Source: a virus
Strand: one strand, 5' to 3'
DNA: 43,793 nt
IMG/VR virus record: IMGVR_UViG_3300017605_000657
Span: 1-43,793 of that record
Below, piece by piece: positions 18,201 to 39,011 of this stretch. Under the pieces are notes generated by a model. It did no database searches, had not been told where the DNA came from, and saw only the letters and a list, made by a program, of their open reading frames with translations. Numbering within the stretch: position 1 is the first letter of the stretch; each line of letters opens with the position of its first letter. Both the position numbers and the translations under genes were made by a program.

Positions 18201-21200
18201 CGAATCGGGAGTTCCTGCGGATCTGCGGGGATTCCTGACGCCGTACCAGCTCCAGGGCGCAGCCAAGGCGCTCGCTGCGATGAACGACCAGGCCCGCCGC
18301 GCGTTCCTGCTCGCGGACGGGACCGGCGTGGGCAAGACCCGGCAGGCGCTCGCGGTCGCGGAGGCGTTCCGCCGCGAGGGCCGCCTGGTCGTGGTGTTCA
18401 CGCCGAACGAAGTGGTTGGAAAGCCGTGGGAGGCCAAGTCGCTCAAGGCCCACGGCGGCAAGGCTGTCATCACCGGCTCCTACGCGCAGGACGCCGCGGC
18501 CATGGGCATCAGCGTGAACCTGTGGCGGCCCAAGGATGGGCCGATGCCTCTCTCGGGCATCGTGCTCACCACGTACACGTACATGACGGACCCCGCGATC
18601 ACCGAGAACCACAACGCGGTGTACGTGTTCGATGAATCGCACGCGCTCAAGAACGCGAGCGCGGGCACGGCGCTCGCGGTGAAGGGGCGCACGCTCGCCA
18701 ATGCGTCCTACGCCACGCTGTTCATGTCCGCCACTCCGGCCGACAAGCCGACCCACATCGAGTACCTGGCGCGCATCGGCATCCTCGAGGGCAAGACGCT
18801 GCGCGACGCGGTCTACGGGCTCGGGTTCCGGCTCGCAGAGAAGGGCGGCCGCACGTTTTGGGTGCCGCAGAAGAACATCAAGACCGAAGAGATCCTGAAG
18901 CGGATGTCCGCGCTGTTCGATCGCATGACCGACAAGGGCTCGATGGTGAAGCGCGAGATCGGGCTCGACGGCGTCGACATCCACTTCCGCCGCCTGGGGA
19001 TGCCGCGCGAGATGCACCAGACGCTGGCGAAGATCGCCGCCCACTTCGATGAATCGAACCCGCGGCAGCGGGCCATCATGCTCATGCACCAGCGCCGCCA
19101 GCAGGAGCCCGAGAAGGCGAAGGTGGCGCTGGAGATTGCGCGCAAGGAGATCGCCGCGGGCCGGCGCGTGATCCTGTTCGTGGCGCGCGTGAACGAGTCC
19201 GAAGTGAAGGTCCAGACCGGCAAGACCGCGACCGGCGAAAAGACCTACGAAACCATCACCTCGAGCGAGGGCACGGCGAAGCTGCTGCGCGCGATGCTGA
19301 CGAAGGAGGGCATCCCGTTCGCCGAGCTGCACGGCGCCGCGGATGTGCACGCCGCCGAGGCCATGGCGTCGTTCCAGACCGGCAACGCAAAGGTGCTCGT
19401 CGCCACCGTGGAGAGCGGCGGCACCGGCATCAACCTGGACGACACCGTGGGCGACGCGCCGCGCACGCTCATCATGGTCACCGCTCCGTTCAACGGCGTC
19501 ACGAACGTGCAGGCGGCCGGGCGCGTGTGGCGCATGACGACCAAGAGCCTGCCGCGCATCGTCTACCTGTTCGGCGATACGCCCGTGGACGACTGGAACG
19601 CCGCCATCATCGCCAAGAAGATGGAGACGCTGGGCGCGAACGTGAGCGGCCAGGTGAAGCGACTACTCATCGACCCCGACCTTCTCAACGAAACAGAGCC
19701 CGAGGACATCGGTTCGCTGATGTCAGGGGAGATCGGAGGGGAAATGCGCGAGCCACCCGCACCCGTCACCACGCCGCCGCCAGAGGAACCGCCGCCACAG
19801 CCGGCGAAGTTCACGCCGCCCAAGCCGACGCCGGCTCCGCCGACCACGACGGAGCTGGCCGAAGGCACGCACGAGGCGTTGCCCAGGGAGTGGACCAGCG
19901 ACAACCGCGACGACATCCGGTACACGGTGGGCCAGGTTCACTATGGGCGCGAGATCCTGAAGGAGCTGGAGGCCAAGCTCGCCAAGGGCACGGTGTCGAA
20001 GCGCAAGGGCGGCGAGCGCAAGCTGACCGGCAAGGAGCGCACCCAGCTGGAGGAAGATGTCCAGCGCAGGAGAGATGCGCTGGACATCGACATGGAGCGC
20101 GTGCGCGCGATCGTGGGCGACCAGACCGAAGAGGCCATCGCTCAGATGGAACGCGAGGCCGCGGAGATCGCCGCGCTGCCGGAGAGCAGCTACTCCAAAA
20201 AGACCGACGAGCCGATGCTCGACTACGAAGGCAAGCAGGAAGTCGATGACGCCGGCAATCCCCTGTACCACGAAGAGCTGGTCGACGTGCAGCCCACGGC
20301 CGAGAACGTCGACAAGTACCAGTGGTCGCGCTACGGCAAGGCCATGGTGAACGGCAAGGAGCACGACATCTCCGACGCCGTCGCCTACTTCAAGTTCGGG
20401 AAGTTCCCGTGGCAGATGTCGCAGGACGAGTACGACCGCTGGCTGTCGTGGGCCGAGGGTCCGTTCGAGGGCGCCGACCGCGTCTCGCTCGAGGACTCCG
20501 CGCACGTCTCGGGTTACGCGCAGGTCCAGGCCGGGTTGATGGACATTCCCATCAGCGACATGGCGAGCACCGAGTACAACCGCCGCCGCGCGGAGGTGTT
20601 CCACGCTGCGTTCAAGGGCGAGGAAATCCCGGAGGCCGTGAAGAACGACTTCCCGTTCGTGCGCCGGATGCTGCCGCCGGACAAGCACCTGTCCGACGCC
20701 GACGCCGACGCCTACATGGACATCGGGTCCAGCCGCAAAAAGGGCGAGACGGACGAGCAGCGCGCGGTGCGGGCCGAGGCCGCGCGCGCCAAGCTGCGCG
20801 CGAAGCACGGGCTGGAGATGTACGGCAAGGAGCACATCGACCACTACCAGCTCGAAAAGATGCGCGACCAGTGGTACGAGCGCCGCGTGGAGTACCAAGG
20901 CGAGCCCTACCGCGTCGGCTTCGTGCACACCGAGTACGACCCGGAGGCCGACCGCGCCTACTTCGCTGCCGACCTGCAGGACGAGTACGACTACGACAAC
21001 CGCGACAAGCGCGTGGACGACGTGCCCATCACCGAGCTGAAGAAGCTGCCCGAGCCGCCGGATTGGGAGACGCGCGACGATCGCATGGAGCGCATCCACA
21101 AGCAGGACGCGGAGCGACGGAGCAACCGCAGCGGCGAGAACATCGAGTTCGCAGACAACAAGTATGAGCAGGAGCGCGAGGCCGCCGGCACCACGCTCGA

Positions 21201-24200
21201 GGAAGAGCGCGCGGCCACGCTGTCGAGCGTGCGCGCGGGGCTGATCGCCAGCTACAACGAGGTGGTGGCGGCCCGCGAGATCATCAGGCGGGCGACCGCG
21301 ATGCTCGAAGGCGCGGATGGCAAGAAGAAGGCGAAGCTCCAGAAGGACATCAACGCCGCCAAGACAGCGATCATCCACGAGACGCGCTCGATCGGGGCAA
21401 CGATCGACGAGGCTCAGATGGCGTTCGGCAACGAGACGGCCGCGGAGCTGGAGAAGCTGGTCGCCGATCTGAACGAGCCGGCGCCTACGAAGCCTCCCGC
21501 CGGCACGAAGCTCGAGCAGACGACGATGGAGGGGATGCCGGCGCCGCAGATCCCCGGCGGCGCGAAGCCAACCGGCCCGGCTCCGCCGCTCGAGCTGGGC
21601 GGCGAGGCGCAGACGTTTGAGCAGGCGTTCGAGGCCCAGCTCCGTGCCGGCGAAGAGCCGGCGTTCGCGTCGCTGGAGGCCGCGCGCATCTCGGGCCAGA
21701 ACGAGCCCGAGGGCTTCGACGCCGAGAAGGCCGCGAGCATGATCCGCCGCCGGATGCTCGAGGAAGTCGGGCAGGGCGACCTGTTCGGAAATAGTCCGCT
21801 CCTGGGCGCAGAGGGACGGGTCGGCGTGGCTGGTGTGCCGCGCGGCGCGCTCCAGGACATCGAGGCCCGTCCCGACCTGATCGGCAACGGCAAGTCCGGA
21901 GTGTGGGACCAGAACGTACTCGCCAGCGACATCCGCACGCACACGACGTTCCAGAACCGCGACACGCTCGCCACGCTGGGCAACACCTCCGGCCCCGTGC
22001 CCGTCGAGTCGCTGGTGAACAACGAGAACATCAACGCGCTCTACAAGGCCGAGGGCGGCTTCAACCCCGACCTGATCCGCGCCAACCCGCCGCTGCTGTG
22101 GAAGGACACGCTGGGCGAGCTGGGCGAGAAGGACGCGCTGTGGCTGCTCTCGGGGCACCACCGCGTGGCGATGTGGAAGCAGAACCTGCCGGACGAGCCC
22201 ATGCCTGCCAAGGTCATGGGCGGGTCGCTGGCGAGCGCCCAGCGCGTGGCGCAGCTCTCCAACCGCCAGGGCGTGGCGAACACACACAGCGAGCTCGCGC
22301 GCCTCGCCTACACGGCGATGAAGAAGGGCGAGGACGACGCGCGCACCGCGGCCCAGCTCAAGGTGAGCGTCTCGGAGCTGGAGCGGCTTGTAAACTTCTA
22401 CCACGTCGACGCCGAGCTGCGGTCCGTCTATTTCCCGCCCGGCGCCGAGGTGTCGATCATGGAGCCGGTGTTCGGGAGCGCGCTGGGCGAGCAGGTGCGG
22501 AAGAACCCCGACGTGTTCACGAAGCAGATTCAGGACGACTTCCTGCGCCGGGTGCTGGGCTCGAGCGACATGCCGCCGTTGTCGCTGATGCAGTTCCGCG
22601 CCGCCATGACCGACTGGAAGAAGAAGATCGCGGACCGCCTGCCGCAGGAGCGCGCCGCCGAGCTGCTGGCCGGCGGGGGCGGCTACATCTCGCCGAGTGC
22701 GTGGCTCGCCGCCACGGAGCGGCTGACGTTCGACATCCAGGCGAGCGTCGCCGACGCGCGCGCCACCATGGTCGGCATCCTCAAGCAGTACGTGCCCGAG
22801 AGCTCGCTGCCCAAGAAGATGACGCAGGAGGCCATCGGCAGGGCGCTCCGCGACTACCGGCACAAGCTGCCCGAGCACGTGCGCGCCACGCTGTCCGACA
22901 TCTCCACGAAGCTGGGCCAGCTCAAGGAGGTCGAGGACGAGGTCGAGGCCCGCGGGCGCACGCTACTCCAGAAGATCATGGACGGCCTGGACATCGCCGA
23001 CGACCTGTCCGCGATCAAGAAGTTCATCGTGGAGAAGATCGGCACGCCGATGCGCGACGCCCTGAACGAAGGCGCGAAGGGCGGCCCCATGGGTGGCGGC
23101 TTCGGCGCGCTGGAGCCGACGATCAACTGGCTGCTCCGCCGCGCCGCCGAGCGCACGCACAAGGCGGCCGAGGCCGTGATGCGCCGGCTGGGCCGCAAGG
23201 CGCGCACGATCTACGTGAAGGACCACGGCACCGGCGCGACGCTCGCCAAGTACGAGCTGACGATGGACCCGACCACGGACCCGGCGAGCGAGATGGCGAT
23301 GTACCGCGCCGGAGCGGTGAGCGGGATCATGGGCAGCTACGTGTCCATGCCGCCCTACGCCCGCGGCGAGACGCTTCGGATGCAGGCCGCGCGCGACTAC
23401 CTGCCGGACTTTTGGGAGCAGCGGCTCTACGAGATCATGGGCGACAGCTTCATCCGCGACGTGCAGCAGTACTACCCCGGCGACGCCCATGCGTTCGACG
23501 CGCTGGAGAAGAAGGACACACCGCAGGCCAAGACCATGCTCGCCAAGTACGGCACCAACTACACCGAGCTGCGCAAGTTCCTCACGGAGATCCACGACTA
23601 CGTGAAGGAGGTGTCCGAGCAGGCAGGCATCCCCGCGCCCGGCTTCATCGAAAACTACGCCCCGCACGTGTTCGAGGGCGAGATGGCCAAGGGGGTCGAC
23701 CGGCTGGCTGAGTTCTTCTACGACCGCAAGATGGACGACGCCGAGAAGCGCCAGCTGGCTAAGCGATTTTTCGACCATCGTGAGGGCGACGAGAACTACC
23801 GCCGCTCGTTCTGGCTGGCGCTTCGTACCTACGCCCGGTTCGCCGGGCACTACGTGGCCAAGGTGCGATTCCTGTCCAAGATGAAAACCCTGCTCTCGAG
23901 CGAGTGGGCGAAGGGCGATCCCCAGCGCGCCGCCGAGGTGCGTCGCACGGTCGTGCGCTCCGTGTGGCAGCAGGAGGATTCCATCGGCAGGTTCATCAAC
24001 GACGCCACGCGCTCCGCGTTCTGGAGCAACGTGGCCGGCGGCGTGGATGCCATCACCGCAGACCAGGCCGCTGCGTACCTGGGCGAGACGAATCCCGGCG
24101 GGAAGTGGGCCGAGACGATCGCCCTCCGTCACCACCGCTTTGCTGGCGCTCGCTTTGCCTACGCGCTCAAGGGCGTGAAGCCCAACTTCACGGACCCCAG

Positions 24201-25959
24201 GCTGTGGGTGAAGCTCGGCGACACGAAGCACGGCAGCGTCTACGCCGGCACCGGAGGCCACGCCTTCGGCCCGGCCCATTCGGAGCTCACGCCGTGGATG
24301 CAGAAAATGCTCGACTTGGGGCTCGAGCTGAAGGTGAGGTCGAACCGGAAGTTCGCCCCCGAGGATGCTGTGGCGGCGATGCTGAGACAGCGGGACCGCT
24401 CGACGCGGCTCTCGCGTCAGCCAGGCAACTACTTGGTGAGCTGGCTCGGGCGGCGCATATCCACCGCCTTGGTCGGGCTCTCGGTGCAGACAACGCTCGT
24501 CAACTTCACCGGCCTGCTCACGCACGTCTACACGCGCTACGGCGCGCTGTCGATGCTCCGCGGCGGGCTGCGCTTCGGGGCGGGCTCGGCAGTAACCGCC
24601 GTGCGCGGGCTCGCGTCGTACCTCGAGCACCACAACCTCATCGACCCCAAGCTCGCTAGCGCCATCTACCGCTCGACGCCCTACATGCGCGAGCAGCTGC
24701 TGCTCGAGGCCGGCGGGCTGCGCCAGGGCTTCGCGCTGTCGCTGGAGAAGATGCTCGAGAAGATCGAGGCGGGCCAGCACAGCATCGACGTGCGCGTGGC
24801 CAAGCTCGCCACCAACTGGATGCAGGGGGCGGAGCTCGTCATCCGCGGCTGGTCGGTCATGGCCGCGGCGGACGCCGCGGAGAGCCGCGGGCACACGTGG
24901 GGCAACGTCAAGGCGTGGGTCGGGCGCAGCAACGTCGACCGCGACCGCGCCATCCAAGACTTGATGGGCCAGCTCTCGGATCCGAAGAGCGTGGTGAGCT
25001 ACGCCGCGGAGAACGAGTATTTCACCAACTTCTTCTACAACCAGCTTGGCCAGAACCCCGGCATGGGCATCCCATGGTTCAAGACCGTGCTCGGGCTCTT
25101 CTCGACGTTCCCCTGGTCGACGTTCGTGCACAAGGATCTGCGCGGGCTGCTGGGCGCGAGCCGCACCGTGTCCGCCGGCATCCGCTCGGCGCTCGGCCGC
25201 ACGCCCACGGAGAAGCCGATGCGCGGCTCGGTGCAGGGCGCCAACTACGACGTGCCTCGCATGGCACCTCGAGAACCCTACGGCGGGCGGGCGAAGGGTG
25301 ACCCGTTCGGCCCGTTCGCGGAGTTCTTCCGAAAAGGCGGCATGTCCTACTTCGACCGCCAGGCAGCGATCGAGTTCGCGCGCTCCATGTTTGTGTCGGG
25401 CGCGCTCGCCGCCGCGGGGGCGGTCTTGGGCATCAACGCGCTTATCGCCTACAGCCCGTTCGCGTTCATGCTCGTGCTCGCCATCCTCAAGATGTTCTAT
25501 CCCGACAACGAGCAGCTCGCCAAGGCGATCCAGAACGCGGAGGCAGGCCAGGCGTTCCGCGCCGGCCATGGCGGCATGGTGGCGGGATCCCCCGTCATCA
25601 ACGCGATTGAGGGCGCGCGCGCGGGCGACGATTGGGGACAGGTGCTGTGGAACGCGACGCTCGGTCGAGTCGGCGACCTGGTGCGCATGGCCGCGCTGGG
25701 CAAGTTCTACCGCTCCGGCAAGGGCATCCTCGAGCAGAACCCCGAGACGTTCGACACCGACCAGCTGCGGTGGCTCTACGACGCCTTCGGCGTGAAGAGC
25801 GCGCTCTACGACCTGACGCTCCAGCAGAAGGCCATGCGCACGCTGGGCATCTTGGACGAGGACACGATCAAGGAGCACCGGCGCCTCATCCGCCCGCGCG
25901 AGAGCCGCGGGGCCGGGCCGCCGCCGCCACCCATGCGGCCGGCGATGGCGCATCCTTGA
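15241..25959 (+). CDS. Giant polyvalent internal virion protein with SNF2/strawberry-notch-type helicase and ParB-like domain
   Basis: A 3572-residue protein, about a quarter of the genome. Visible order: Ala/Gly-rich, membrane-active-looking N-region (1-390); Pro-rich linkers; a small SH3/KOW-like barrel (about 821-870); a superfamily 2 helicase (about 981-1483); a charged coiled-coil region (about 1560-2110); a ParB-like domain with SGHHR at 2304-2308; a helical region; and a C-terminal hydrophobic part with membrane segments near 3061-3100 and 3383-3420. Helicase landmarks are GTGVGKT (1027-1033), DESH (1131-1134), SATP (1163-1166) and QAAGRVWR (1424-1431). The layout fits the polyvalent proteins of phages and plasmids, injected with DNA to protect or process it. 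P1 DarB is a known functional parallel. No methylase motif is seen. GTG start with weak ribosome-binding site. Confidence 0.85.
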   Translation: MATTDQSPISATIDSMRARAAAAAPPVRIAKGGKHRVGDLLQDGWGAPLIGRAGMYTPKGQKLLSLELPDDLPDNDRTAILGFVAKNLGRFVTPEAAAGMGGGPEVAGPTQQQVAQEAYNRSSLGGKMLLQMAAGIERVAPQPIAAPTDLVPKPQSLAEHAAGFAGTVGTYALEVAALRKLPFLKPVAGSPLASSVRGGAAAAMAAGASRAPDLSSRLVSAGTMGVTSGLSEFIPLSIYKAAVTRAATKVAPAFAEAAGASRAASIAQALKAAAGTVPGMTEADQALAARLAAVTGERAAGAARGAAVAGAAALTGAQRAAAVGGAVGSTLIFGPLSAYMEYGGEKITGHDVELPTLKDVLTQTGMVAATSLLHLPMQLRGVGVEPERIEPLGPGPAGPELLPGGTTPPSPVAPWPVPRAAAPAVDAIRQNALAKLGNEPNPFAGGLTPTQAFNKNFTDAVQAVAAERGKPPEALTPDEFRIAAARASSKVGGLETLKQVMTLPKLSPADPDAARKLNNRVDATARANKIMAGKQATISLPVKTSRGVVQVPTDATIVHVEMAPDLREGALRVLVQEGQTGKLVPLSFDNVEAMARDIRFPAPTPASAEPVGRLTTSRMATVPPGTPPPTAVGAELARGALTPTPKPIAGQLPLKAGKGAAPAEPVDVWREARGTIKELAGDEGSAATELWTELRAGRPVPPRAVPLLERLRSMGMKVKDSKVRELAKRVPNANVFRKSLRGKLMKGLEGRIRELGRSTPEQGPTASPPSPAPTPPAPATGPPPEPPSAGPPAVTQPKPAPTPPAPKSIAPEPLRREEPKGPKVGERVEVGEHRGVVIDQAEGKKTVLLDSGRTVQAADVAVKPEAPKEITHYPSQSRGGEPLRISTMAGSHLVNAEAKQPAGPLKEALRAEIGRRGIVPKEAPVEPAKPAAPAAAAHPAQPRAAPSGGTVERGAGGERNARARVPVKGQGGERIAVARAEFTHDVDESGVPADLRGFLTPYQLQGAAKALAAMNDQARRAFLLADGTGVGKTRQALAVAEAFRREGRLVVVFTPNEVVGKPWEAKSLKAHGGKAVITGSYAQDAAAMGISVNLWRPKDGPMPLSGIVLTTYTYMTDPAITENHNAVYVFDESHALKNASAGTALAVKGRTLANASYATLFMSATPADKPTHIEYLARIGILEGKTLRDAVYGLGFRLAEKGGRTFWVPQKNIKTEEILKRMSALFDRMTDKGSMVKREIGLDGVDIHFRRLGMPREMHQTLAKIAAHFDESNPRQRAIMLMHQRRQQEPEKAKVALEIARKEIAAGRRVILFVARVNESEVKVQTGKTATGEKTYETITSSEGTAKLLRAMLTKEGIPFAELHGAADVHAAEAMASFQTGNAKVLVATVESGGTGINLDDTVGDAPRTLIMVTAPFNGVTNVQAAGRVWRMTTKSLPRIVYLFGDTPVDDWNAAIIAKKMETLGANVSGQVKRLLIDPDLLNETEPEDIGSLMSGEIGGEMREPPAPVTTPPPEEPPPQPAKFTPPKPTPAPPTTTELAEGTHEALPREWTSDNRDDIRYTVGQVHYGREILKELEAKLAKGTVSKRKGGERKLTGKERTQLEEDVQRRRDALDIDMERVRAIVGDQTEEAIAQMEREAAEIAALPESSYSKKTDEPMLDYEGKQEVDDAGNPLYHEELVDVQPTAENVDKYQWSRYGKAMVNGKEHDISDAVAYFKFGKFPWQMSQDEYDRWLSWAEGPFEGADRVSLEDSAHVSGYAQVQAGLMDIPISDMASTEYNRRRAEVFHAAFKGEEIPEAVKNDFPFVRRMLPPDKHLSDADADAYMDIGSSRKKGETDEQRAVRAEAARAKLRAKHGLEMYGKEHIDHYQLEKMRDQWYERRVEYQGEPYRVGFVHTEYDPEADRAYFAADLQDEYDYDNRDKRVDDVPITELKKLPEPPDWETRDDRMERIHKQDAERRSNRSGENIEFADNKYEQEREAAGTTLEEERAATLSSVRAGLIASYNEVVAAREIIRRATAMLEGADGKKKAKLQKDINAAKTAIIHETRSIGATIDEAQMAFGNETAAELEKLVADLNEPAPTKPPAGTKLEQTTMEGMPAPQIPGGAKPTGPAPPLELGGEAQTFEQAFEAQLRAGEEPAFASLEAARISGQNEPEGFDAEKAASMIRRRMLEEVGQGDLFGNSPLLGAEGRVGVAGVPRGALQDIEARPDLIGNGKSGVWDQNVLASDIRTHTTFQNRDTLATLGNTSGPVPVESLVNNENINALYKAEGGFNPDLIRANPPLLWKDTLGELGEKDALWLLSGHHRVAMWKQNLPDEPMPAKVMGGSLASAQRVAQLSNRQGVANTHSELARLAYTAMKKGEDDARTAAQLKVSVSELERLVNFYHVDAELRSVYFPPGAEVSIMEPVFGSALGEQVRKNPDVFTKQIQDDFLRRVLGSSDMPPLSLMQFRAAMTDWKKKIADRLPQERAAELLAGGGGYISPSAWLAATERLTFDIQASVADARATMVGILKQYVPESSLPKKMTQEAIGRALRDYRHKLPEHVRATLSDISTKLGQLKEVEDEVEARGRTLLQKIMDGLDIADDLSAIKKFIVEKIGTPMRDALNEGAKGGPMGGGFGALEPTINWLLRRAAERTHKAAEAVMRRLGRKARTIYVKDHGTGATLAKYELTMDPTTDPASEMAMYRAGAVSGIMGSYVSMPPYARGETLRMQAARDYLPDFWEQRLYEIMGDSFIRDVQQYYPGDAHAFDALEKKDTPQAKTMLAKYGTNYTELRKFLTEIHDYVKEVSEQAGIPAPGFIENYAPHVFEGEMAKGVDRLAEFFYDRKMDDAEKRQLAKRFFDHREGDENYRRSFWLALRTYARFAGHYVAKVRFLSKMKTLLSSEWAKGDPQRAAEVRRTVVRSVWQQEDSIGRFINDATRSAFWSNVAGGVDAITADQAAAYLGETNPGGKWAETIALRHHRFAGARFAYALKGVKPNFTDPRLWVKLGDTKHGSVYAGTGGHAFGPAHSELTPWMQKMLDLGLELKVRSNRKFAPEDAVAAMLRQRDRSTRLSRQPGNYLVSWLGRRISTALVGLSVQTTLVNFTGLLTHVYTRYGALSMLRGGLRFGAGSAVTAVRGLASYLEHHNLIDPKLASAIYRSTPYMREQLLLEAGGLRQGFALSLEKMLEKIEAGQHSIDVRVAKLATNWMQGAELVIRGWSVMAAADAAESRGHTWGNVKAWVGRSNVDRDRAIQDLMGQLSDPKSVVSYAAENEYFTNFFYNQLGQNPGMGIPWFKTVLGLFSTFPWSTFVHKDLRGLLGASRTVSAGIRSALGRTPTEKPMRGSVQGANYDVPRMAPREPYGGRAKGDPFGPFAEFFRKGGMSYFDRQAAIEFARSMFVSGALAAAGAVLGINALIAYSPFAFMLVLAILKMFYPDNEQLAKAIQNAEAGQAFRAGHGGMVAGSPVINAIEGARAGDDWGQVLWNATLGRVGDLVRMAALGKFYRSGKGILEQNPETFDTDQLRWLYDAFGVKSALYDLTLQQKAMRTLGILDEDTIKEHRRLIRPRESRGAGPPPPPMRPAMAHP

Positions 25960-26375
25960 GCAAGCTCATCGCCGACCTGGAGCCGTGGACGCAGGCCAAG
26001 TGCGAGCGCGTTCTCGCCGCGGCCGCCACCTTCGTGGGCCGGCCGGTGAGGCTGACGTGGACCGAGCGCACGATGGAAGAGCAGCAGCAGCTGTGGGAGG
26101 TTGGCCGCAAGCTGGAGAACGGCATCTGGATCGTCGTGGGCAAGACCGTGACGCGAGCCCGACCGGGGCAGAGCCCGCACAACTACCGGATGGCGTTCGA
26201 TATATGCTTTCAGGGCGCTGACCCGTACCTGGAGGGCCTGCCGGAGGGCAACGCCCTGTGGGAGCGTTACGGGCAGCTGGTGGAGTCAGTCGGGCTGGCT
26301 TGGGGTGGCCGGTGGCATGTGGGAGCAGACCGTCCGCACGCGGAAAGGCCGGACTGGAGAACTGCCCATGCTTGA
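25956..26375 (+). CDS. Endolysin, M15-type peptidase (VanY/L-alanyl-D-glutamate-like)
   Basis: A 139-residue single-domain enzyme. It should cleave peptide stems of peptidoglycan and lyse the host. Zinc ligands fit the M15 pattern: H75 and D82 in SPHNYRMAFD, and H128 in DRPHAE. The N-terminal half has the usual helix with TWTERTMEEQQQLWEVGRK. No signal peptide or cell-wall-binding domain is present, so a holin is needed for release. TTG start overlapping the stop of the giant gene. The next two genes encode small membrane proteins, completing a lysis cassette. Confidence 0.85.
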   Translation: MSKLIADLEPWTQAKCERVLAAAATFVGRPVRLTWTERTMEEQQQLWEVGRKLENGIWIVVGKTVTRARPGQSPHNYRMAFDICFQGADPYLEGLPEGNALWERYGQLVESVGLAWGGRWHVGADRPHAERPDWRTAHA

Positions 26376-26718
26376 CGATGTCGGGGGGAACGCGATGGCG
26401 CTCACGGAGGGCGAAACCCAGATCCTGTTGCGGCTGGCGGACAACGCGCAGAAGCAGTCCGAGATCGCCAGCGACCAGGTCGTGGTGATGCAGCGGATCA
26501 TCGACCTGATGTCGCGCCTCGAGGACAGGCTGGAAAAGCTGGACACCGACCGGCAGGAGACGATCCACTCCATCAACCTGCACACCACGTCCACGGTGCG
26601 CAACTGGAAAACCGCGATGACCATCACCATCGGTCTGGCCATGCTCGTGCTGGGCATGGTCGAGGTGCTGGACATCACCGTGGAGCGGTGGCAACACTGG
26701 CTGCAGTTCCACCCGTAA
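26368..26718 (+). CDS. Small membrane protein of the lysis cassette
   Basis: A 116-residue protein overlapping the endolysin by 8 bases. A long N-terminal coiled-coil helix (GETQILLRLADNAQKQSEIA through MSRLEDRLEKLD) leads to one membrane segment at about 82-102 (MTITIGLAMLVLGMVEVL) and a short Trp-rich tail. The position between endolysin and holin suggests a spanin-like or auxiliary holin role. The start could also be the ATG at 26395, preceded by a G-run. I prefer 26368 because TGGAGA lies at good spacing and the overlap allows coupling. Confidence 0.65.
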   Translation: MLDDVGGNAMALTEGETQILLRLADNAQKQSEIASDQVVVMQRIIDLMSRLEDRLEKLDTDRQETIHSINLHTTSTVRNWKTAMTITIGLAMLVLGMVEVLDITVERWQHWLQFHP

Positions 26719-26730
26719 CAAGGAGGTTTC

Positions 26731-27036
26731 ATGGATACCGCGCTGTTCCACGTGCTGTGGCCCTACATCCTCCAGCTCGGCGGAGTCGTGTTCGCCGGCT
26801 TCGTCGCCAAGAAGCTGCACACGGCGGCCGACCACTCGCGCGCCCAGGCCATCGCCACGATCGCCAAGGACATTGCCGGCGCCGTCTACGCGAACAACCC
26901 CACGCTGACGTGGGTGCAGTTGCTGCAGCAGGTGGTGAACCAGCTCGCCGACCAGCAGCTCACGAACAACGCCGATGTGCTCGCTCGCGTGGCATCCACG
27001 GCGCTGCTCTCGGTGGGTGCCGGACCGAAGAAATAG
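26731..27036 (+). CDS. Holin, LLH-like
   Basis: A 101-residue protein with a perfect AAGGAGG six bases before the ATG. One N-terminal membrane segment (about residues 8-25, YILQLGGVVFAGFVAKKL) is followed by a soluble helix-rich tail with DIAGAVYANNP and QQVVNQLADQQL. That resembles the LLH-type phage holins, which have a single N-terminal span and an Ala/Val-rich tail. It is the last gene of the late operon before a promoter at 27042. Holin function is inferred from topology, size and position beside an endolysin. Confidence 0.65.
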   Translation: MDTALFHVLWPYILQLGGVVFAGFVAKKLHTAADHSRAQAIATIAKDIAGAVYANNPTLTWVQLLQQVVNQLADQQLTNNADVLARVASTALLSVGAGPKK

Positions 27037-27041
27037 GGGGC

Positions 27042-27071
27042 TTGACGGCTAGGCCCATGCAAGGGTAAGGT
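27042..27071 (+). promoter_or_regulatory. Sigma-70-type promoter for the recT operon
   Basis: TTGACG at 27042-27047, an 18-base spacer, and TAAGGT at 27066-27071 give a good -35 and a -10 keeping the three most conserved bases. The expected start site near 27078 falls just before the first stem of the structured leader, supporting the assignment. It faces the RecT-like gene. Confidence 0.6.
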
Positions 27072-27077
27072 CCGCGG

Positions 27078-27177
27078 TGTAGCGTGGACCCGGTGGGAGT
27101 TCGATAAGACGAAGCGGAGCGGATTCGGGTCCACGCCGCCAGTCGAGTCGGACTCCCTCTTACTTTTGGAGGCCCCC
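27078..27177 (+). promoter_or_regulatory. Structured 5' leader RNA with pseudoknot and Shine-Dalgarno-masking alternative
   Basis: An 11-base perfect inverted repeat (27082-27092 with 27126-27136) forms stem 1. GGGAGT at 27095-27100, inside its loop, can pair with ACTCCC at 27152-27157 beyond stem 1, giving H-type pseudoknot topology. The CTCC at 27154-27157 can instead pair with GGAG of the ribosome-binding site (27168-27172) in a short hairpin. The two pairings exclude each other, so the leader could switch translation of the RecT-like gene. Read from sequence; energies not computed. Confidence 0.45.
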
Positions 27178-28575
27178 GTGCCCGAAACCGCCCTTGGCCA
27201 GCGCACCCCGGACCAGCTGGCGTTCCTCACCAGCACCGATGGATGGCGCAAGTTCACCGACATTTCCGCCATCATGTGTGCTGGCGGCGCGGATCCAGGA
27301 GCGCGGATGCTGCCGCGCGGCTTCAAGACCCCGCAGCAGGTGCAGACCGGCCTGCTCTTGGGCATGTCGCTTGGCTACGACCTGCTCGGTGCCATCGCCC
27401 TGCTCCAGCACATGAGCCCGGTCGAGGGCAAGATGTCGTTCGGCTGGGAGTGGAAGCTCGCGCGCGTGATCGAGCTGGTGCCCACGTGGCGCTACGGCAT
27501 CACCGAGAGCACCGACACGGTGTGCAAGGGGTGGTTCCAGCGCAGCCCGCAGCACGAGCGGTTCGAGGTGAGCTGGACGATCGAGCAGGCGCAGAAGGCC
27601 CAGCCGTCGGCGTTCATCAAGAGCGAAAAGGGCTTCTTCGGCAATTGGGTGACGCGCTCGGCGCAGATGCTGCGCAAGACCGTCATCACCCAGGGGGTGT
27701 CGCTCACCGCGCCCGATGCCCTCATCGGCGTCACGCGCGATCCCGAGGACGAAGAGGCGCAGGAAGAGGTTGTGGTCACGACCACGGTGGAGGAAGCCCG
27801 CAACGCCGTGCCCGTGCCCGTCGCTGTCGTGGTCGAGGATGGTGGCGGCAACAAGCCGGAGGCCGTCATCGGGGGCGGGCCGAAGGCTGAGCCGCCGCCG
27901 TCCACGCCCACGGACAGCGTCGAGGCCGCGCGCACGTGCTTCCTCAGCGAGGCCGAGAAGAGGGGCTGGAACCGCAAGCACGGCCCGTCTATCTTCAAGC
28001 TCCTCCAGGAGCTGCTCACGGCCGAGGGCGTGGTCCCCACGTGGAAGAGCGCGGCCGAGGTGGCGACGGGTGACTGGCGGCTCGCCTACGCCCGTCTCTG
28101 CGAGCGGTATCCGAACGGCAAGCCCGAGGGCTGGCCGAATCAGGTGAGGGCGGCGGTTGCGGAAAAGCCAGGCCCCACGGGAGCGGCCCCCGTGAGCCGG
28201 GAGGCCGCGCCGTCGCCCGTAGTTACCACCGAGAGCGTTGCCGATCTGCGCACCGAGGTCGAGGGCGGCAACCCGCAGCTCGAGGATCCGCAGTTCCTCA
28301 TCCAGCTCGGCGTGGCGCTCGAGAAGGCGTGGAAGCAGCCCGCCGGCACCGTCATCGGCGACCACGGCGAGTTCGGCACGTGGTTCATGCACTCGGGCAT
28401 CCTCATCGAGGCCGGGCACGTCGAGCTGGAGAAGGGGCAGGCGAGCGCCAAGACCATGGCCATCACGCCGTGCCCCAACTTCCCCGACCGGCTGCTCAAC
28501 GCGGCGCAGGTGGCGAAGCTCTCGGAGATCGTGCAGGACAAGCTGCGCGCGATCGACCAGCGGAGGGCACGATGA
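27178..28575 (+). CDS. RecT-like single-strand annealing protein with C-terminal extension
   Basis: A 465-residue protein. The first 200 residues follow the RecT-type order: LPRGFKTPQQVQTGLLLGMS, then IALLQHMSPVEGKMSFGW, a GWFQRSP strand, and TRSAQMLRKTVITQGVSLTAPDA ending GVTRDPEDEE. RecT proteins anneal complementary single strands in phage recombination and replication. A Val/Pro/Gly linker (about 200-240) separates a second part with KHGPSIFKLLQELLTAEG and a MHSGILIEAGHVELEKGQ segment near the end, for which I have no family. Start GTG with GGAGG five bases upstream; a TTG at 27166 is less likely because it overlaps that site. First gene of the operon. Confidence 0.7.
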   Translation: MPETALGQRTPDQLAFLTSTDGWRKFTDISAIMCAGGADPGARMLPRGFKTPQQVQTGLLLGMSLGYDLLGAIALLQHMSPVEGKMSFGWEWKLARVIELVPTWRYGITESTDTVCKGWFQRSPQHERFEVSWTIEQAQKAQPSAFIKSEKGFFGNWVTRSAQMLRKTVITQGVSLTAPDALIGVTRDPEDEEAQEEVVVTTTVEEARNAVPVPVAVVVEDGGGNKPEAVIGGGPKAEPPPSTPTDSVEAARTCFLSEAEKRGWNRKHGPSIFKLLQELLTAEGVVPTWKSAAEVATGDWRLAYARLCERYPNGKPEGWPNQVRAAVAEKPGPTGAAPVSREAAPSPVVTTESVADLRTEVEGGNPQLEDPQFLIQLGVALEKAWKQPAGTVIGDHGEFGTWFMHSGILIEAGHVELEKGQASAKTMAITPCPNFPDRLLNAAQVAKLSEIVQDKLRAIDQRRAR

Positions 28576-29111
28576 AGGTCACGGTACGGAAGGTTCAGCC
28601 CGGCTGGTTCCACCGCGTCACGCGCTGGATCGTGGGCGCGAACGCGCACGGCTGGTGGGTCATCGTGGAGGGCGCGCAGACTCCCATCGCACGGGATCTG
28701 CGCGAGGACGACGCCTACCGCCTGGTCGACGTGCTCAACGCCGTCTACGGCATCGCGCGGTTCAACCTGGAGACGGTGAGCAAGCAGCAGAAGGAGATGG
28801 AGGTGTACGAAGAGGTGCTCCGCGAGTGCCGCGAGTACTTCGACAACAAGGCCGACGCCGAGCACTGGCCGCCGGTCGGGAACAAAGAGATGACGATGCT
28901 CTCGCGCATCGACAGCATCCTGCCGCGCGAGCTGCTCATCGCAGAGCTGGGGCGCCCGTCGCGCTTCCCGCACTTCGATGACGGGGAGCCGCGGCGCAGC
29001 GACTACGTGGACGACGAGCCGGACATTGACGACGACCCGGACCACCACTCCCTGCCGGACGACTGCCTGCCCCGGTTCGTGTCCAGCGACAACGACGAGG
29101 GGTTCGCATGA
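28572..29111 (+). CDS. Acidic-tailed hypothetical protein
   Basis: A 179-residue protein coupled to the RecT-like gene (ATGA overlap). The N-terminal half mixes strand and helix (WFHRVTRWIVGANAHGWWVIVEG, DAYRLVDVLNAVYGIARF), followed by a charged helix with KQQKEMEVYEEVLRECREYF. The last 40 residues are mostly Asp, Glu, Pro and His (DEPDIDDDPDHHSLPDD), a DNA-mimic-like acidic tail. No family is recognised. Position suggests a recombination accessory or early regulator. Confidence 0.65.
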   Translation: MKVTVRKVQPGWFHRVTRWIVGANAHGWWVIVEGAQTPIARDLREDDAYRLVDVLNAVYGIARFNLETVSKQQKEMEVYEEVLRECREYFDNKADAEHWPPVGNKEMTMLSRIDSILPRELLIAELGRPSRFPHFDDGEPRRSDYVDDEPDIDDDPDHHSLPDDCLPRFVSSDNDEGFA

Positions 29112-29722
29112 GCACGAACGTCTACGAAGGTCTGGTCAACCGCGCGTTGCAGGCCCCAGCCATCACCAGCGCCGCGGTGGTTGTCGAGCAGCTCAAGGAG
29201 CACGCGCCGCTCGAGAGCGAGGAAGAGGCCGCGCTCGTTGCCGGCATGGGCATCGCCTGCCACGACGCGCGCGTGGAGCTGGAGCGCGAGCGCAAGAAGA
29301 TCCTCGACCCGCTGAACGAGGCCCGCCAAGTCATCTTCGACGGCACGAAGCCGCGGCTGGACCTGTTCGCCGAGGGCGAGCGCCAGGCCAAGGCCCTCGT
29401 CGGCGCGTGGAACGAGAAGAAGCGCGCCATCGCCCTCGAAGAGCAGCGGAAGCAGCAGGAGCGCCAGGCTGCCGCGGTGACGGACGGCGCGCCGGTCCCG
29501 GTGGTCTATGCCCCGCCGCCCTCCGCGACCGTGCACAGCATGGGCCGCACGATGCACGAGAGCACGGTCTGGTACGTCGAGGTGTTCGACAAGGCCGCGG
29601 CGATAGCGGCTCGCCCGGACCTGTTCGACGTGCGCGAGAGCGACGCCAAGCAGCTGCTCCAGGCCGGCGTCGTCATCCCCGGCATGGCGATGCGCTCGCG
29701 CAAGACGCAGGTGATCCGGTGA
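29108..29722 (+). CDS. Conserved phage coiled-coil protein of the recombination cluster
   Basis: A 204-residue protein. A long helical body includes EEEAALVAGMGIACHDARVE, a KKILDPLNEARQVIFDGTKP region and AKALVGAWNEKKRAIALEEQ. A Pro-rich hinge leads to a compact C-terminal part with ESTVWYVEVFDKAAAIAARPD and VVIPGMAMRSRKTQVI. This split (helical N-part, then a small beta domain with a TxW motif and a closing IPG) is one I associate with phage proteins found next to recT. The function is not established. Confidence 0.6.
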   Translation: MSTNVYEGLVNRALQAPAITSAAVVVEQLKEHAPLESEEEAALVAGMGIACHDARVELERERKKILDPLNEARQVIFDGTKPRLDLFAEGERQAKALVGAWNEKKRAIALEEQRKQQERQAAAVTDGAPVPVVYAPPPSATVHSMGRTMHESTVWYVEVFDKAAAIAARPDLFDVRESDAKQLLQAGVVIPGMAMRSRKTQVIR

Positions 29723-29874
29723 GCGCCACGACCTGCGAGGCCCACGATGGCGCGGTCTGCTACCGGAACGCGAATGGGACGTGGACGTGCCCAGCCTGCG
29801 AGTTGGAGCGCCTGGAGCGTAAGGTCGACGCCCTGCAGCGGACGCTGAACTCGAGAACAGAGGGGGCAGCATGA
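29719..29874 (+). CDS. Small zinc-ribbon-like protein
   Basis: A 51-residue protein starting at GTG inside the preceding stop. Cysteines are at 6, 14, 24 and 27 (the last pair as CPAC), with H9 nearby. They could bind one zinc. A Leu/Arg helix (RLERKVDALQRTLN) follows. The stop overlaps the next ATG. Too small for a functional call; it may bind nucleic acid or a partner. Confidence 0.6.
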   Translation: MSATTCEAHDGAVCYRNANGTWTCPACELERLERKVDALQRTLNSRTEGAA

Positions 29875-30257
29875 GAGCACAGCCGTCAGAGCTTCTGGAG
29901 GCCGGCCGTCTCCGCGGCCGCTCCATGGACAGCAGGCCGAACGACACCTTCGGCGCGTTCCGAGTCTCGATGCCCGGCAGCCAGGCCGTGCTGCTCGTCA
30001 TCGTGGGCGACGGCAAGGACTGGCACCTCACGGGGCTGCCGATGCCGGCATGGGAGCATGTGAGCGTCAGCCTCAAGAACCGCACGCCCACGTGGGAAGA
30101 GATGGAGTGGGTGCGCGAGCAGGTGTTCGATGACAGCGAGCTGGTGATCCAGCTCTCGGTGCCGCGCGTGGACCACATCAACTTCCACGACTACGTGCTG
30201 CATATGTGGCGGCCGGTCGGCGTCGAGCTTCCGGTGCCGCCGAAGAAGTGCGTGTGA
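29871..30257 (+). CDS. DUF7694-like conserved phage protein
   Basis: A 128-residue protein. The second half reads W..VSVSLKNRTPTWEEMEWV, then FDDSELVIQLSVP and ending LHMWRPVGVELPVPP. I recognise this combination (WEEM helix, a DD strand, a HxWRP turn and a Pro-rich end) from a widespread phage family of unknown function listed as DUF7694. It starts at ATG overlapping the previous stop and belongs to the rightward early operon. The role is unknown. Confidence 0.7.
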   Translation: MRAQPSELLEAGRLRGRSMDSRPNDTFGAFRVSMPGSQAVLLVIVGDGKDWHLTGLPMPAWEHVSVSLKNRTPTWEEMEWVREQVFDDSELVIQLSVPRVDHINFHDYVLHMWRPVGVELPVPPKKCV

Positions 30258-30403
30258 TCCGATTCGTCTCGAGCACGCCGCTGGAGTCCCGCATGGACTT
30301 GTTCTACGCCATGATGCTCGGAGACAAGGAAGCTGAGCCGAAGTGGCTCGACGCAGTTCTGTGCGACTTGGCGTCGAGGCCAGCCGAGGGGGAGGGCAAA
30401 TGA
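30254..30403 (+). CDS. Very small hypothetical protein
   Basis: A 49-residue protein, GTG start overlapping the previous stop, stop overlapping the next start. It contains a short helix (RMDLFYAMMLGDKEAEPKW) with no motif. It is kept because the overlapping start and stop on both sides fit the operon pattern; coding is not otherwise proven. Confidence 0.5.
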   Translation: MIRFVSSTPLESRMDLFYAMMLGDKEAEPKWLDAVLCDLASRPAEGEGK

Positions 30404-30930
30404 GCATCGAGCTGCAGGAGCTGCTGGAACGTCTCGCCGAGCTGCACCACAACCAGTGGCGCACGTGGGCGGCCGGGCTCACCCTCTCGGACGACGAAAG
30501 GCTGTCCTACGCCAAGGCCATGGTGCCGTACTCGAAGCTGTCGGAGGACTTGAAGAACGCGCGCCGCGGCGTGGCCCAGCTCCAGCTCGAGGCGGCCGAG
30601 CAGGTGTTCGGCGACATCGACGGGCGCGCGCAGAAGCTCTACGCGGCCGTCCTCGAGGTCTGCAACCGGATCCCGCTGCTCTACCACCCCGTCAGCGAGG
30701 GCAAGCTGCCGTTCGAGCAGGCCGCCGACATGCTCGCGGCGCTGGGCAAGGAGTGGCAGGCGATCGATGCGCGCCAGGAGATGCTGGCGGCGAAACTCTA
30801 CGGCTACGAGAAGCTGCTCGCAGCCGTGAAGGCGTGGCACAAGCGCGACTTGACCGACCGCGTCGCCATCTCGGCCGCGGAGGACGCGCTCACCTACGAG
30901 GTGGACACTCTGTTGCAGGCCAAGGACTGA
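30400..30930 (+). CDS. Helical hypothetical protein
   Basis: A 176-residue protein with ATG overlapping the previous stop and GGAGGG upstream. It is almost entirely helical. Segments are LQELLERLAELHHNQWRTWAAG, a QLQLEAAEQVFGDIDGRAQ region and a C-terminal EDALTYEVDTLLQAKD. The ELHHNQW segment is reminiscent of small phage early proteins, but I cannot name a family. It ends the first part of the early operon; the next gene begins 40 bases later after a candidate -10 element. Confidence 0.6.
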   Translation: MSIELQELLERLAELHHNQWRTWAAGLTLSDDERLSYAKAMVPYSKLSEDLKNARRGVAQLQLEAAEQVFGDIDGRAQKLYAAVLEVCNRIPLLYHPVSEGKLPFEQAADMLAALGKEWQAIDARQEMLAAKLYGYEKLLAAVKAWHKRDLTDRVAISAAEDALTYEVDTLLQAKD

Positions 30931-30932
30931 GG

Positions 30933-30938
30933 TATTAT
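30933..30938 (+). promoter_or_regulatory. Candidate -10 element before the glycosidase-spike cassette
   Basis: TATTAT, one mismatch from the -10 consensus, stands out in this GC-rich sequence. The best -35 (TTGCAG at 30913) is only 14 bases away, so the promoter is weak or needs an activator. It would separate transcription of the 30971-35067 genes from the recT genes. Confidence 0.3.
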
Positions 30939-30970
30939 CGAAGCCGGTCCATGGGAGGGACACCCCGGCC

Positions 30971-32221
30971 ATGAAGGCACTGATCCTGGCAGTCCTGCTC
31001 GCGTTGCCGTTCCCGAGGCCCGCCTCGTACCAGAACAACAGCAGCCAGGGCGGCCCCGTCATCAAGCCGAACAACACCATCGACACCGCGCGCGTGAAGG
31101 AACGAGCGCGCTGGTCGCGCACCGTCCTTGACATCGCCCCGTTCGGCAACTTCGGCACGCCCCCGCCCGCCTGGTATCAGGTGCCGGCGCTCATCCGGTT
31201 CTACAACCCGACGTGTGACGTGCTCGGCTACATCCAGACGCAGAACTTCTGGCACGACAGCACGTGGAACCCCGACCCCAGCGACCACGGCTTCTGGACC
31301 GACTACTGGCGCTGCCTCTACCACTACGACGCCTGGCTCTACACGCCAGACGGGCAGACGCGCGGCGAGTGGAACGTGAATTGGGGGAACGCCGCGTTCG
31401 CCGACTCGATGGGCACGCTCCTGATCCGCCAGTGGCAGCTCGGGATCTGGAACGGCCTGTTCCTCGACTCGTGGATGGAGCACATCAAGTGGACCGGCGA
31501 GGGCGTGAACCCGCCGATCGACTACGTGCGAGCTGGGTTCGCCAACGGCGACCAGATGGACAGCGCGCGCACGGTCAATATGTCGCGGCAGATCTCGAGG
31601 CTGAAGGCAGCCGGCGCCGTGGTGTGGACCAACTCCGGCGGCACGCCCGTGGCGAACGACGACGCCGACATGCGCGAGGGCTTCATGTCGCTGTTCACCC
31701 TCGCCAGCACCGTGGCGTGGATCCAGACCAAGGATGTCGCGCACTGGCTCAAGGCCGAGTGGTATGGCGGCGGCCAGGACTCCGGGGAGTGGTACACGCG
31801 CGAGGCTTGCAAGTTCGCGCGCTTCGGGCTCGGCATCTCCTGTATGGGTGACGGCTGCTACAGCATCGGCGCCGAACGCTTCAACACCCAGCCGTGGTAC
31901 GACGAGTTCGCCATCGGCCCGTGGCCCTACAACCGCGCCGACTCTCCGCAGAAGCAGACCGGGTGGCTCGGACAGCCGGGCGACCTGGTCACGATCTCGC
32001 CGGGGTTCTACGTGCGCTGGTTCGACAACGGCGCGGTGCTCATCAACACCACTAACACCGTGCAGACGTGGTTCGCATGGAAAACGCTGTGGCGCATCCA
32101 GGGCTACCGCGATCCCTACACCAACACCGGCCAGTCGGGGTGGTTCTTCGCTGTGCCGGGGCAGGACGCGCTGTTCCTGCGCAAGAGGCCGGAGCCGGCC
32201 AAGAAGCACGGGCTGCTGTGA
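30971..32221 (+). CDS. Exported glycoside-hydrolase-like protein (GHL15-type)
   Basis: A 416-residue protein. The N-terminus is a probable signal peptide (MKALILAVLLALPFPRPAS). The mature part has the order expected of a hydrolase barrel: IRFYNPTCDVLGYIQ, FADSMGTLLIRQWQLG, then NGLFLDSW with D166 as a likely catalytic acid. AVVWTNSGGTP and REGFMSLFTL follow. I associate this pattern with the putative glycosyl hydrolase family 15 (GHL15). The C-terminal third is a beta domain (VRWFDNGAVLINTTNT). It precedes two beta-helix genes and a fibre gene, suggesting a surface-glycan-degrading set. Activity and family are inferred. Confidence 0.6.
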   Translation: MKALILAVLLALPFPRPASYQNNSSQGGPVIKPNNTIDTARVKERARWSRTVLDIAPFGNFGTPPPAWYQVPALIRFYNPTCDVLGYIQTQNFWHDSTWNPDPSDHGFWTDYWRCLYHYDAWLYTPDGQTRGEWNVNWGNAAFADSMGTLLIRQWQLGIWNGLFLDSWMEHIKWTGEGVNPPIDYVRAGFANGDQMDSARTVNMSRQISRLKAAGAVVWTNSGGTPVANDDADMREGFMSLFTLASTVAWIQTKDVAHWLKAEWYGGGQDSGEWYTREACKFARFGLGISCMGDGCYSIGAERFNTQPWYDEFAIGPWPYNRADSPQKQTGWLGQPGDLVTISPGFYVRWFDNGAVLINTTNTVQTWFAWKTLWRIQGYRDPYTNTGQSGWFFAVPGQDALFLRKRPEPAKKHGLL

Positions 32222-32235
32222 AGGAGCTGGCGCGG

Positions 32236-32403
32236 ATGAAGTTCCCCGGCACCGAGGTGCCCGCGCGCGACCACAACTTCAACGGTCGCTGTCGTCCGGG
32301 CTGCCAGGTCGACCACGCCGGCAAGTACGAGGCGTGGGTCCACCGCATGGCGATGTGGGCCTTCCAGTGGGGTCCGGCGCTGCTGGACCAGGAGAAGCCG
32401 TGA
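32236..32403 (+). CDS. Small hypothetical protein
   Basis: A 55-residue protein. ATG follows AAGGAG by nine bases; a GTG at 32218 overlapping the previous stop is possible but lacks a ribosome-binding site. It has two cysteines (CRPGC) and His residues (DHNF, QVDHAGKYEAWVHRM), followed by a Trp-rich helix. It might bind a metal. It sits between the glycosidase-like gene and the first beta-helix gene. No family known. Confidence 0.5.
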   Translation: MKFPGTEVPARDHNFNGRCRPGCQVDHAGKYEAWVHRMAMWAFQWGPALLDQEKP

Positions 32404-33314
32404 GGATCTGCGTCAGCCCCAGCAAGGGACTCCAGGTGGTCTGCAACGCGCTCACGAACGGCGGCACGATCGTGCTGCAGGGCGGCGCCACCTACTACGG
32501 AGATCCAGCCAACCCCGGCAACAACCTCGTGCTCACGAACGGCAACATCAACTTCGTGGGCGAGGGCCAGCTGAGCACGATCATTGGCAGCCCGGTGCTC
32601 ATCCAGAGCTCCTTCAACAGCGCGGAGAACATCTGGTTCAAGCGCGCCGGTGCAGCCTATGGCGTGCGCATCGGCGCGCCGGGCGGCAACCCCTTTCTCG
32701 CTCGCAACTACTTCAAGAGGTGCCAGTTCGGGGCCACGTCCTCCGGCAGCGGAGACGGTCCAGTGGACGGCATCCAGAGCGACGGCGCCGGACTGTTCAT
32801 CGCGGAGCATTGCCTGTTCGCCTTCTGCACGAACGACGGGGTGGCGTGGGACAAGACGGGCGCGCAGCCCAACACCACGTCGCAATTCATCGGCTGCTCG
32901 GCGGTCGGCAACGCCCGGTTCGGCTACTACATCAATGGCAGCAACACGTGCGTCGAGATAATCGGCGGGAGCATCCAGGACAACGTCAGCTCCGAGGTCA
33001 AGCTCGCGGGCGTCTCGGGCGTGAACATCATTGCCGTGGACCTCGAAACCGCGCAGAACCACGCACTCGGCATGATCCAAGCCAGCGGCACCAACATCAT
33101 CATCGAGCGGTGCACCGTCAGCCGCAACGCCGGCACCTCCGCCAGATTTGTGCTGGCACAGACGGCGGGTCGCTTCACCATGACGAAGAACCGCGTCACC
33201 GGGTGGGGCGCGACGGAGATCGCTCGCTTGGACGAGAACTGCACGGACTGCTTGACGGAGCCAAACTGGCTCGACTCGGGGGCATACGTGGACGACAGGT
33301 CGGTGTCGGCATGA
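32400..33314 (+). CDS. Right-handed beta-helix tail-spike-like protein
   Basis: A 304-residue protein, GTG start overlapping the previous stop. Successive short turns rich in Gly, Asn and Ile suggest a pectate-lyase-type beta-helix: GGTIVLQGGATYYGD, NINFVGEGQLSTIIG, FIAEHCLFAFCTNDG, FIGCSAVGNARFGYYING, VEIIGGSIQDN and IIIERCTVSRNAG. Such folds are used by phage spikes that bind or cleave polysaccharide. No N-terminal virion-anchor domain is obvious, so it may be a secreted or separately assembled depolymerase, or bind the virion through a partner. Several Asp/Glu could be catalytic but cannot be picked out. Confidence 0.65.
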   Translation: MRICVSPSKGLQVVCNALTNGGTIVLQGGATYYGDPANPGNNLVLTNGNINFVGEGQLSTIIGSPVLIQSSFNSAENIWFKRAGAAYGVRIGAPGGNPFLARNYFKRCQFGATSSGSGDGPVDGIQSDGAGLFIAEHCLFAFCTNDGVAWDKTGAQPNTTSQFIGCSAVGNARFGYYINGSNTCVEIIGGSIQDNVSSEVKLAGVSGVNIIAVDLETAQNHALGMIQASGTNIIIERCTVSRNAGTSARFVLAQTAGRFTMTKNRVTGWGATEIARLDENCTDCLTEPNWLDSGAYVDDRSVSA

Positions 33315-34102: not shown

Positions 34103-34104
34103 CC

Positions 34105-35067: not shown

Positions 35068-35089
35068 ACGACCAACAGGGAGGCCGTCC

Positions 35090-36216: not shown

Positions 36217-36515
36217 TGGTGCTGACGCCCGGACGAGTGGCCGAGATTCAGAGCGAGGCCAGCGAATGGAGCCAGAAGTATCCCTCGATGGCGGAGGTTG
36301 AGCGCCTCGCTGGCGACTGGCTGCGTCTCCGCGCGCAAGTCGAGGTTCTCAGGAGCGAGGTCCGGGCGTGGCGCGAAGCCCATGCGCTGGACAATGAAGA
36401 AAGGGTTTCGCACGACGAACTCTGGAAGGCATGGAAGAAAGCCAAAGCCGCCCGCGCGGCCACCGACCGCGATCGGGCACTGGAGGAGTGGGCGCTGGAC
36501 GAGAACAAGATCTAG
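36216..36515 (+). CDS. Coiled-coil hypothetical protein
   Basis: A 99-residue, charged, helical protein (AEVERLAGDWLRLRAQVEVLRSEV, then SHDELWKAWKKAKAARAATDRD). The ATG follows the FEN stop with one base overlap and TGGAGG upstream. It probably forms a coiled coil, possibly binding a partner of the nuclease. No family recognised. Confidence 0.6.
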   Translation: MVLTPGRVAEIQSEASEWSQKYPSMAEVERLAGDWLRLRAQVEVLRSEVRAWREAHALDNEERVSHDELWKAWKKAKAARAATDRDRALEEWALDENKI

Positions 36516-36524
36516 GGGGCGGGC

Positions 36525-37303: not shown

Positions 37304-37305
37304 GG

Positions 37306-38252: not shown

Positions 38253-38267
38253 GGGGGCAACCTTTCT

Positions 38268-38298: not shown

Positions 38299-38322
38299 CG
38301 TTCGGGTGTCAGTAGTCGGACC

Positions 38323-38987: not shown

Positions 38988-39011
38988 GTTCGCTCCTTTC
39001 GGGAAGAGCTT

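Follow-up and report, generated by a model that had tools for sequence, protein, structure and literature searches.

The recT locus

The window, by which we mean the whole stretch of DNA analysed, is a virus record of 43,793 bases whose first and last 70 nucleotides (1–70 and 43724–43793) are identical. These identical ends make it probable that the genome is complete and, as far as ends can tell, it is circularly permuted or directly repeated. A polyvalent protein gene of 3,572 codons (15241–25959) bears a helicase motif; inside it, on the opposite strand, ARAGORN called a tRNA-Val (16063–16156, - strand) that is probably false. Further on, 141 bases separate a 101-codon gene (26731–27036) from a recT-like gene, whose product matched Pfam RecT with 26.1 bits (cut-off 24; E = 7.5e-6) and phrog_4171, a RecT-like single-stranded DNA (ssDNA) annealing protein, with E = 3.8e-7. 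A structure model of this RecT, made from 2 sequences, had a pLDDT of 33 and no usable fold. The 141-base gap contains a weak promoter-like site and two helices, S1 and S2, which cross each other. The features are as follows, L012 being the related locus described below.

27042–27071, + strand: promoter-like TTGACG-18-TAAGGT, read from the sequence and weak by consensus
27080–27084, + strand: TAGCG, same letters in L012 (8812–8816), with the predicted transcription start inside
27082–27092, + strand: S1 5' arm, GCGTGGACCCG, 11/11 standard pairs in the window and in L012
27095–27105, + strand: S2 5' arm, GGGAGTTCGAT, crossing S1, pairing computed
27108–27110, + strand: possible S3 5' arm, GAC, an inner extension of S2, weak
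27121–27129, + strand: GGATTCGGG, an identical 9-mer in L012 by sequence-only alignment
27126–27136, + strand: S1 3' arm, CGGGTCCACGC, with 3 pairs double-changed (2 of them alignment-independent) and 1 changed from G-C to G-U
27142–27144, + strand: possible S3 3' arm, GTC, weak
27147–27157, + strand: S2 3' arm, GTCGGACTCCC, with 9 invariant pairs, 1 double-changed and 1 G-G mismatch in L012
27168–27172, + strand: Shine-Dalgarno (SD) GGAGG of recT, read from the sequence, 10 nt 3' of S2
27178–28575, + strand: recT-like gene of the single-strand annealing protein family, GTG start (Pfam RecT, phrog_4171)

A distant relative with the same leader layout

Single-protein scans of IMG/VR with RecT, capsid and portal returned zero relatives, as did the genome contigs collection. 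INPHARED held no credible RecT relative of the window protein, and its capsid matches were just 22–27% identical; leader-pattern searches returned nothing or chance repeats (10 stretches, with dissimilar surroundings in all). L012 was reached by one route alone: the helicase motif in the polyvalent protein (3,572 residues), which matched 38 loci. The polyvalent gene of L012 has 2,385 codons, two stretches of which are similar to that of the window (67% identity over 663 columns, and 43%), and downstream of it lies a RecT homologue 34% identical to the window RecT. When the records with the helicase motif were searched for RecT, the window protein matched in 1 of 38 and the L012 protein in 2 of 40. 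The second record matched by the L012 RecT was MW202753.1, where the match lies shortly behind an annotated exonuclease; the leader models gave no match in this record.

The 138 bases 5' of the L012 recT have the layout seen in the window: TTGACA-18-TACCTT, TAGCG, S1, S2, GGAGG and GTG. The two leaders are identical at 46 of 70 aligned letters, the recT coding DNAs at 52% and the proteins at 34%. Similarity was undetectable between the genes just upstream of recT (26731–27036 and L012 8262–8771). Because these upstream genes are dissimilar, the promoter and leader appear to travel with recT, and a conserved leader behind dissimilar small genes suggests module exchange. Across the small genes from the endolysin position to recT (26305–27036 against L012 7932–8771), the next pair upstream gave only insignificant matches. 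A small upstream open reading frame in the window (GTG at 27084, 7 codons) was dropped as a candidate: by eye, L012 has no counterpart.

The window promoter matches the consensus weakly (TTGACG 5/6, TAAGGT 3/6), and a promoter scan of the window made no call at the site. Its counterpart in L012 (8775–8804) shares with it TTGAC, a TANNNT skeleton and the 18-nt spacer, and TAGCG lies 8 nt 3' of the -10 hexamer in the window and 7 nt in L012. A preliminary description of this DNA had placed the transcript start at the base of the first stem; the promoter-like site at the same offset in L012 supports this placement, and we infer that the RNA begins at the foot of S1.

S1 and S2 form a pseudoknot layout

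The preliminary description had also proposed an 11-base perfect stem and a helix, GGGAGT with ACTCCC, that crosses it. Both were recovered: S1 (27082–27092/27126–27136) has 11 perfect pairs, and S2 is present in the window and in L012. S2 comprises 11 pairs in the window, 2 of them U-G; its core (27095–27104/27148–27157) has 10/10 pairs, one of which is U-G, and the eleventh pair is the other U-G. The helix order S1a S2a S1b S2b is, on sequence and covariation, the layout of an H-type pseudoknot. It is ~76 nt long; from its end to the SD there are 10–11 nt in each phage, and in the window S2 ends 21 nt 5' of the start codon. The helices had been thought mutually exclusive, but S1 and S2 have no base in common, and so their sequences do not force exclusion.

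Among dinucleotide-shuffled leaders, a two-helix pseudoknot of this size arose in 2 of 20,000 for the window and in 5 of 20,000 for L012; its occurrence within 141 nt is beyond chance. A perfect 11-bp inverted repeat alone is less remarkable, the GC-rich window holding 8 where 2.45 are expected. A pseudoknot descriptor run over 880,715 bases, both strands, found the window leader and the L012 leader, each of them a second time in a duplicate locus, along with six further sites. Elsewhere in the window, between convergent genes, a GC-rich 14-bp hairpin with a T-rich tail on the - strand (36947–36978) contains GGTCCACGCC, which is similar to an S1 arm.

S1 is conserved in structure while its letters change

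We made a covariance model from the window leader alone, with the S1 structure, and searched 51 of the 55 sources (54 loci and the window), 872 kb in all; L001, L050, L053 and L054, three of which are copies, were left out. The sole other significant match was L012 8810–8891 (29.7 bits, E = 6.6e-5), and the next had an E of 0.49. With its pairs removed, the same model gave L012 17.2 bits (E = 0.0038). A record-wide search with the model missed the record of L012 at first look, although that record bears the element.

Pair counts depend on the alignment used, which was fitted to S1. On this alignment, S1 had 11/11 pairs in both sequences, three double-changed and one G-C/G-U, while S2 had 11/11 pairs in the window and 10/11 in L012. 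Of the 44 cells of S1 and S2 together, 97.7% were paired, against 32–54% when partners were slid by 1–3 columns, and 4 pairs were double-changed against 0 in these slid controls. Sequence-only alignments shift the 3' arm of S1 in L012 by one column. In a sequence-only alignment the third double change of S1 is non-homologous, and we therefore count it as alignment-dependent; it hinges on the placement of GGATTCGGG, the CGGG of which falls within S1 in the window and in the loop in L012. The check for covariation in relatives that had been proposed for this leader was thus run against L012, and it yielded two firm compensatory changes and an alignment-dependent third in S1, with one more in S2. 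When the S1 arms were randomly substituted, all pairs were kept in 0.07% of trials on the 11-bp reading, and the alignment-independent 9-bp core was kept in 1.1%. S2 alone shows little covariation (random null 16%).

Four U-G cells across the two sequences would be mismatches on the opposite strand, which argues for a + strand RNA. Although this conservation evidence comes from n = 2 sequences, S1, the main helix of the knotted fold, is kept in a distant relative despite changed letters, and the fold is on that account probably a genuine control element.

Folding energies

Stacking energies were -27.0 kcal/mol for S1 and -21.4 kcal/mol for S2. Rough nearest-neighbour sums for S1 and S2 together, with a penalty of 9.6, came to -38.8 kcal/mol in the window and -41.9 kcal/mol in L012, and the best nested folds to -38.3 and -49.1 kcal/mol, the latter containing a nested S2 hairpin. 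On these energies, the S1-S2 pseudoknot is plausible. In L012 the nested S2 hairpin is stabler than the rough pseudoknot estimate, so S1 and S2 may alternate; helices of 11 and 11 bp with a loop of 0–2 nt also make their simultaneous formation sterically demanding. The nested minimum-energy fold of the window region uses S2 and not S1. As a nested fold, 27078–27177 was not unusually stable (z = -1.0; 43 of 300 shuffles were as good), while the trimmed 27080–27162 was (z = -2.9; 1 of 200 shuffles). Among the 985 scanning windows (of 1746) that were scored, 17 were lower than the one over the leader (27051–27200, z = -3.29), so energy alone would not single out the leader. Two coding stretches, 20051–20200 and 27801–27950, fold far better as + strand RNA than 24 shuffles of each (z = -5.9 and -5.7).

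Stems as stable as these, placed at the predicted 5' end with the SD outside both helices, could be a passive, ligand-free structure that keeps the end of the mRNA from being degraded and buffers the recT ribosome site against variable upstream sequence. A plain stem would suffice for these tasks, making the crossing helix unnecessary, and the conserved unpaired letters (TAGCG, GGATTCGGG, and parts of CGATRA and GAGTCGG) would be unneeded. We regard a purely passive role as unlikely.

Masking of the Shine-Dalgarno is not conserved

When S1 was forced in the window, the SD was unpaired with a probability of 0.01–0.07, through pairing of CCUCU (27156–27160) with GGAGG (27168–27172). With S1 forced in L012, it was unpaired with a probability of 0.52–0.95. 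The earlier proposal of a switch in which CTCC masks the SD is therefore not supported: the pairing is predicted in the window with S1 forced but is absent in L012, so that the SD hairpin belongs to the window sequence alone. We rejected an SD switch as a conserved feature because L012 has no SD-sequestering pairing. At L012 8892–8908, a hairpin of 6 bp (GCGTTA/TGACGC, with one G-U) has GGAGG as exactly its five-base loop, and the window has no such hairpin.

These values bear on a bistable, riboswitch-like arrangement in which a metabolite or protein would choose between the S1 hairpin and a long S2/S3 hairpin. The mostly unpaired L012 SD in the S1-only state speaks against such a switch, as do inner helices that differ between the two nested folds and the absence of a match in Rfam; the paired SD in the S1-only state of the window speaks for it. 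The S1-only and S2 folds differ by 4–8 kcal/mol in the window and 3–5 in L012, which a switch could use, and one S3 pair is double-changed (A-U/U-A), another being invariant and one broken in each sequence. Taken together, we find a switch of this kind improbable. Rfam 15 gave no match at the gathering cut-off in the window and none credible, at E up to 5, in either leader. The riboswitch-type expression platform suggested by the preliminary description found no positive support: Rfam gave no match, a partner that sequesters the SD is not conserved, and L012 lacks a U-tract terminator.

In H-type pseudoknot translational riboswitches (preQ1, SAM-II, SAM/SAH), the SD or anti-SD is part of the knot. 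The recT leader is like these in its crossing helices just 5' of the SD, but it differs from them in that the SD lies outside the knot, masking is not conserved and Rfam gives no match.

Terminators and upstream transcription

The S2 hairpin is followed in the window by TCTTACTTTT, with 7 T in 10 bases at 27158–27167, and it stands at an operon boundary, as would an intrinsic terminator for the lysis genes that lie upstream. In L012, TTCGGCGTTA occupies the same place; moreover, a terminator scan gave no call at the leader and S1 would be left unexplained. A terminator is thus a most improbable account, and we rejected it as a conserved feature because the U-rich stretch after S2 is missing in L012.

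RNA reading through from upstream could fold differently. In the window, 27060–27168 folds into a three-way junction composed of 27060–27069/27159–27168, 27069–27076/27083–27090 and the S2 hairpin; its energy is -57.2, where shuffles gave -38.0 (z = -5.4; 0 of 300), and the SD is buried in the fold of 27037–27200. Read-through mRNA would then hide the SD and RNA from the recT promoter would not, as in T4 lysozyme, gene e being the precedent in the available part of PMC3014915. L012 lacks the first two of these helices, its corresponding fold being different, and we rejected the junction as a conserved feature for that reason; as the explanation of the leader it has very little chance of being right. 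It may supplement the pseudoknot but would not replace it.

In the available part of PMC9378689, the putL RNA of phage HK022 lies just 3' of an early promoter, has its first paired base at +3, extends ~70 nt and consists of two successive stem-loops with a triplex. By that account, the recT leader is similarly a folded RNA of the ~70-nt class beginning at the first bases of the transcript: S1 starts at ~+1 to +3 and the element is 76 nt. It might act as a put-type RNA, whose folded 5' end binds the elongating RNA polymerase so that pauses and downstream terminators are ignored, and a long operon does follow behind recT. Its helices cross, however, whereas those of putL, as described in the same text, are in tandem, and no terminators are evident downstream. 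A terminator scan of 25000–43793 found no excess (9 against 8.0 expected); on the + strand the recT operon has a single weak candidate, at 34991, which leaves a put-type RNA little to read through. Put-type antitermination is the leading rival on position and size, yet we consider it unlikely.

A candidate operator resembling that of T4 gene 32

The sequence comparison supports two crossing helices, a sense-strand RNA, a conserved promoter offset and an association with recT. Our preferred reading is a protein-controlled leader: 27078–27162 would be the 5'-terminal, pseudoknotted leader of the recT operon and most likely a protein-bound translational operator like that of T4 gene 32, a tentative assignment to which we give a probability of roughly 0.36. 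In the portions of PMC535899 and PMC3014915 available, gp32 nucleates on a pseudoknot ahead of the gene 32 ribosome site and covers that site; the pseudoknot has ~28 nt, with >40 nt of A+U-rich, unstructured RNA behind it. Measured against those portions, the recT leader and that of gene 32 in T4, T2 and RB69 are alike: each places a pseudoknot close to the start of a phage message, ahead of the ribosome site for a recombination protein that binds ssDNA, and in each the helices are preserved in a relative. RecT belongs to an ssDNA annealing family, much as gp32 is an ssDNA-binding protein, which favours the analogy; the two are of different protein families. The recT leader is also larger than the gene 32 pseudoknot as there described (76 nt against ~28 nt), stands 10 nt from the SD and is GC-rich; a UUAAA-rich unstructured tract is absent between knot and start, the sequence there being TCTTACTTTT in the window and TTCGGCGTTA in L012. 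Because of its size, its spacing and the missing A+U tract, we say that the recT leader may work like that of T4 gene 32, not that it is a member of the same class.

In the proposed mechanism, RNA synthesis would start at the foot of S1. The 3' arm of S1 is transcribed ahead of that of S2, so S1 can form first on the emerging RNA, and S2 would then close across it, the two coexisting in one molecule. The resulting pseudoknot would be an operator recognised by a protein, RecT being the first candidate. RecT in excess over ssDNA would bind the pseudoknot, spread or sit over the SD and stop its own synthesis; the pseudoknot ends about where we would place the 5' border of an initiating ribosome. 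That a RecT-family annealing protein governs its own translation in this way, via a 76-nt 5'-terminal pseudoknot and as a second, independently evolved case of the gene 32 kind, is possible but doubtful.

In the full-text literature, a coverage that takes in few subscription papers, we found nothing on recT leader pseudoknots or RNA motifs upstream of recT. Within the same coverage there was nothing on translational autoregulation by annealing proteins, and no RNA-binding data for RecT. The leader is probably a new type of leader RNA, present in two phages, with its mechanism as a candidate. If this is true, a conserved pseudoknot before another single-strand annealing family suggests a general solution, in which a strand-coating protein gauges its own surplus on a folded piece of its own mRNA. 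RecT is used in recombineering, and a natural brake on RecT synthesis would, if real, be of practical use.
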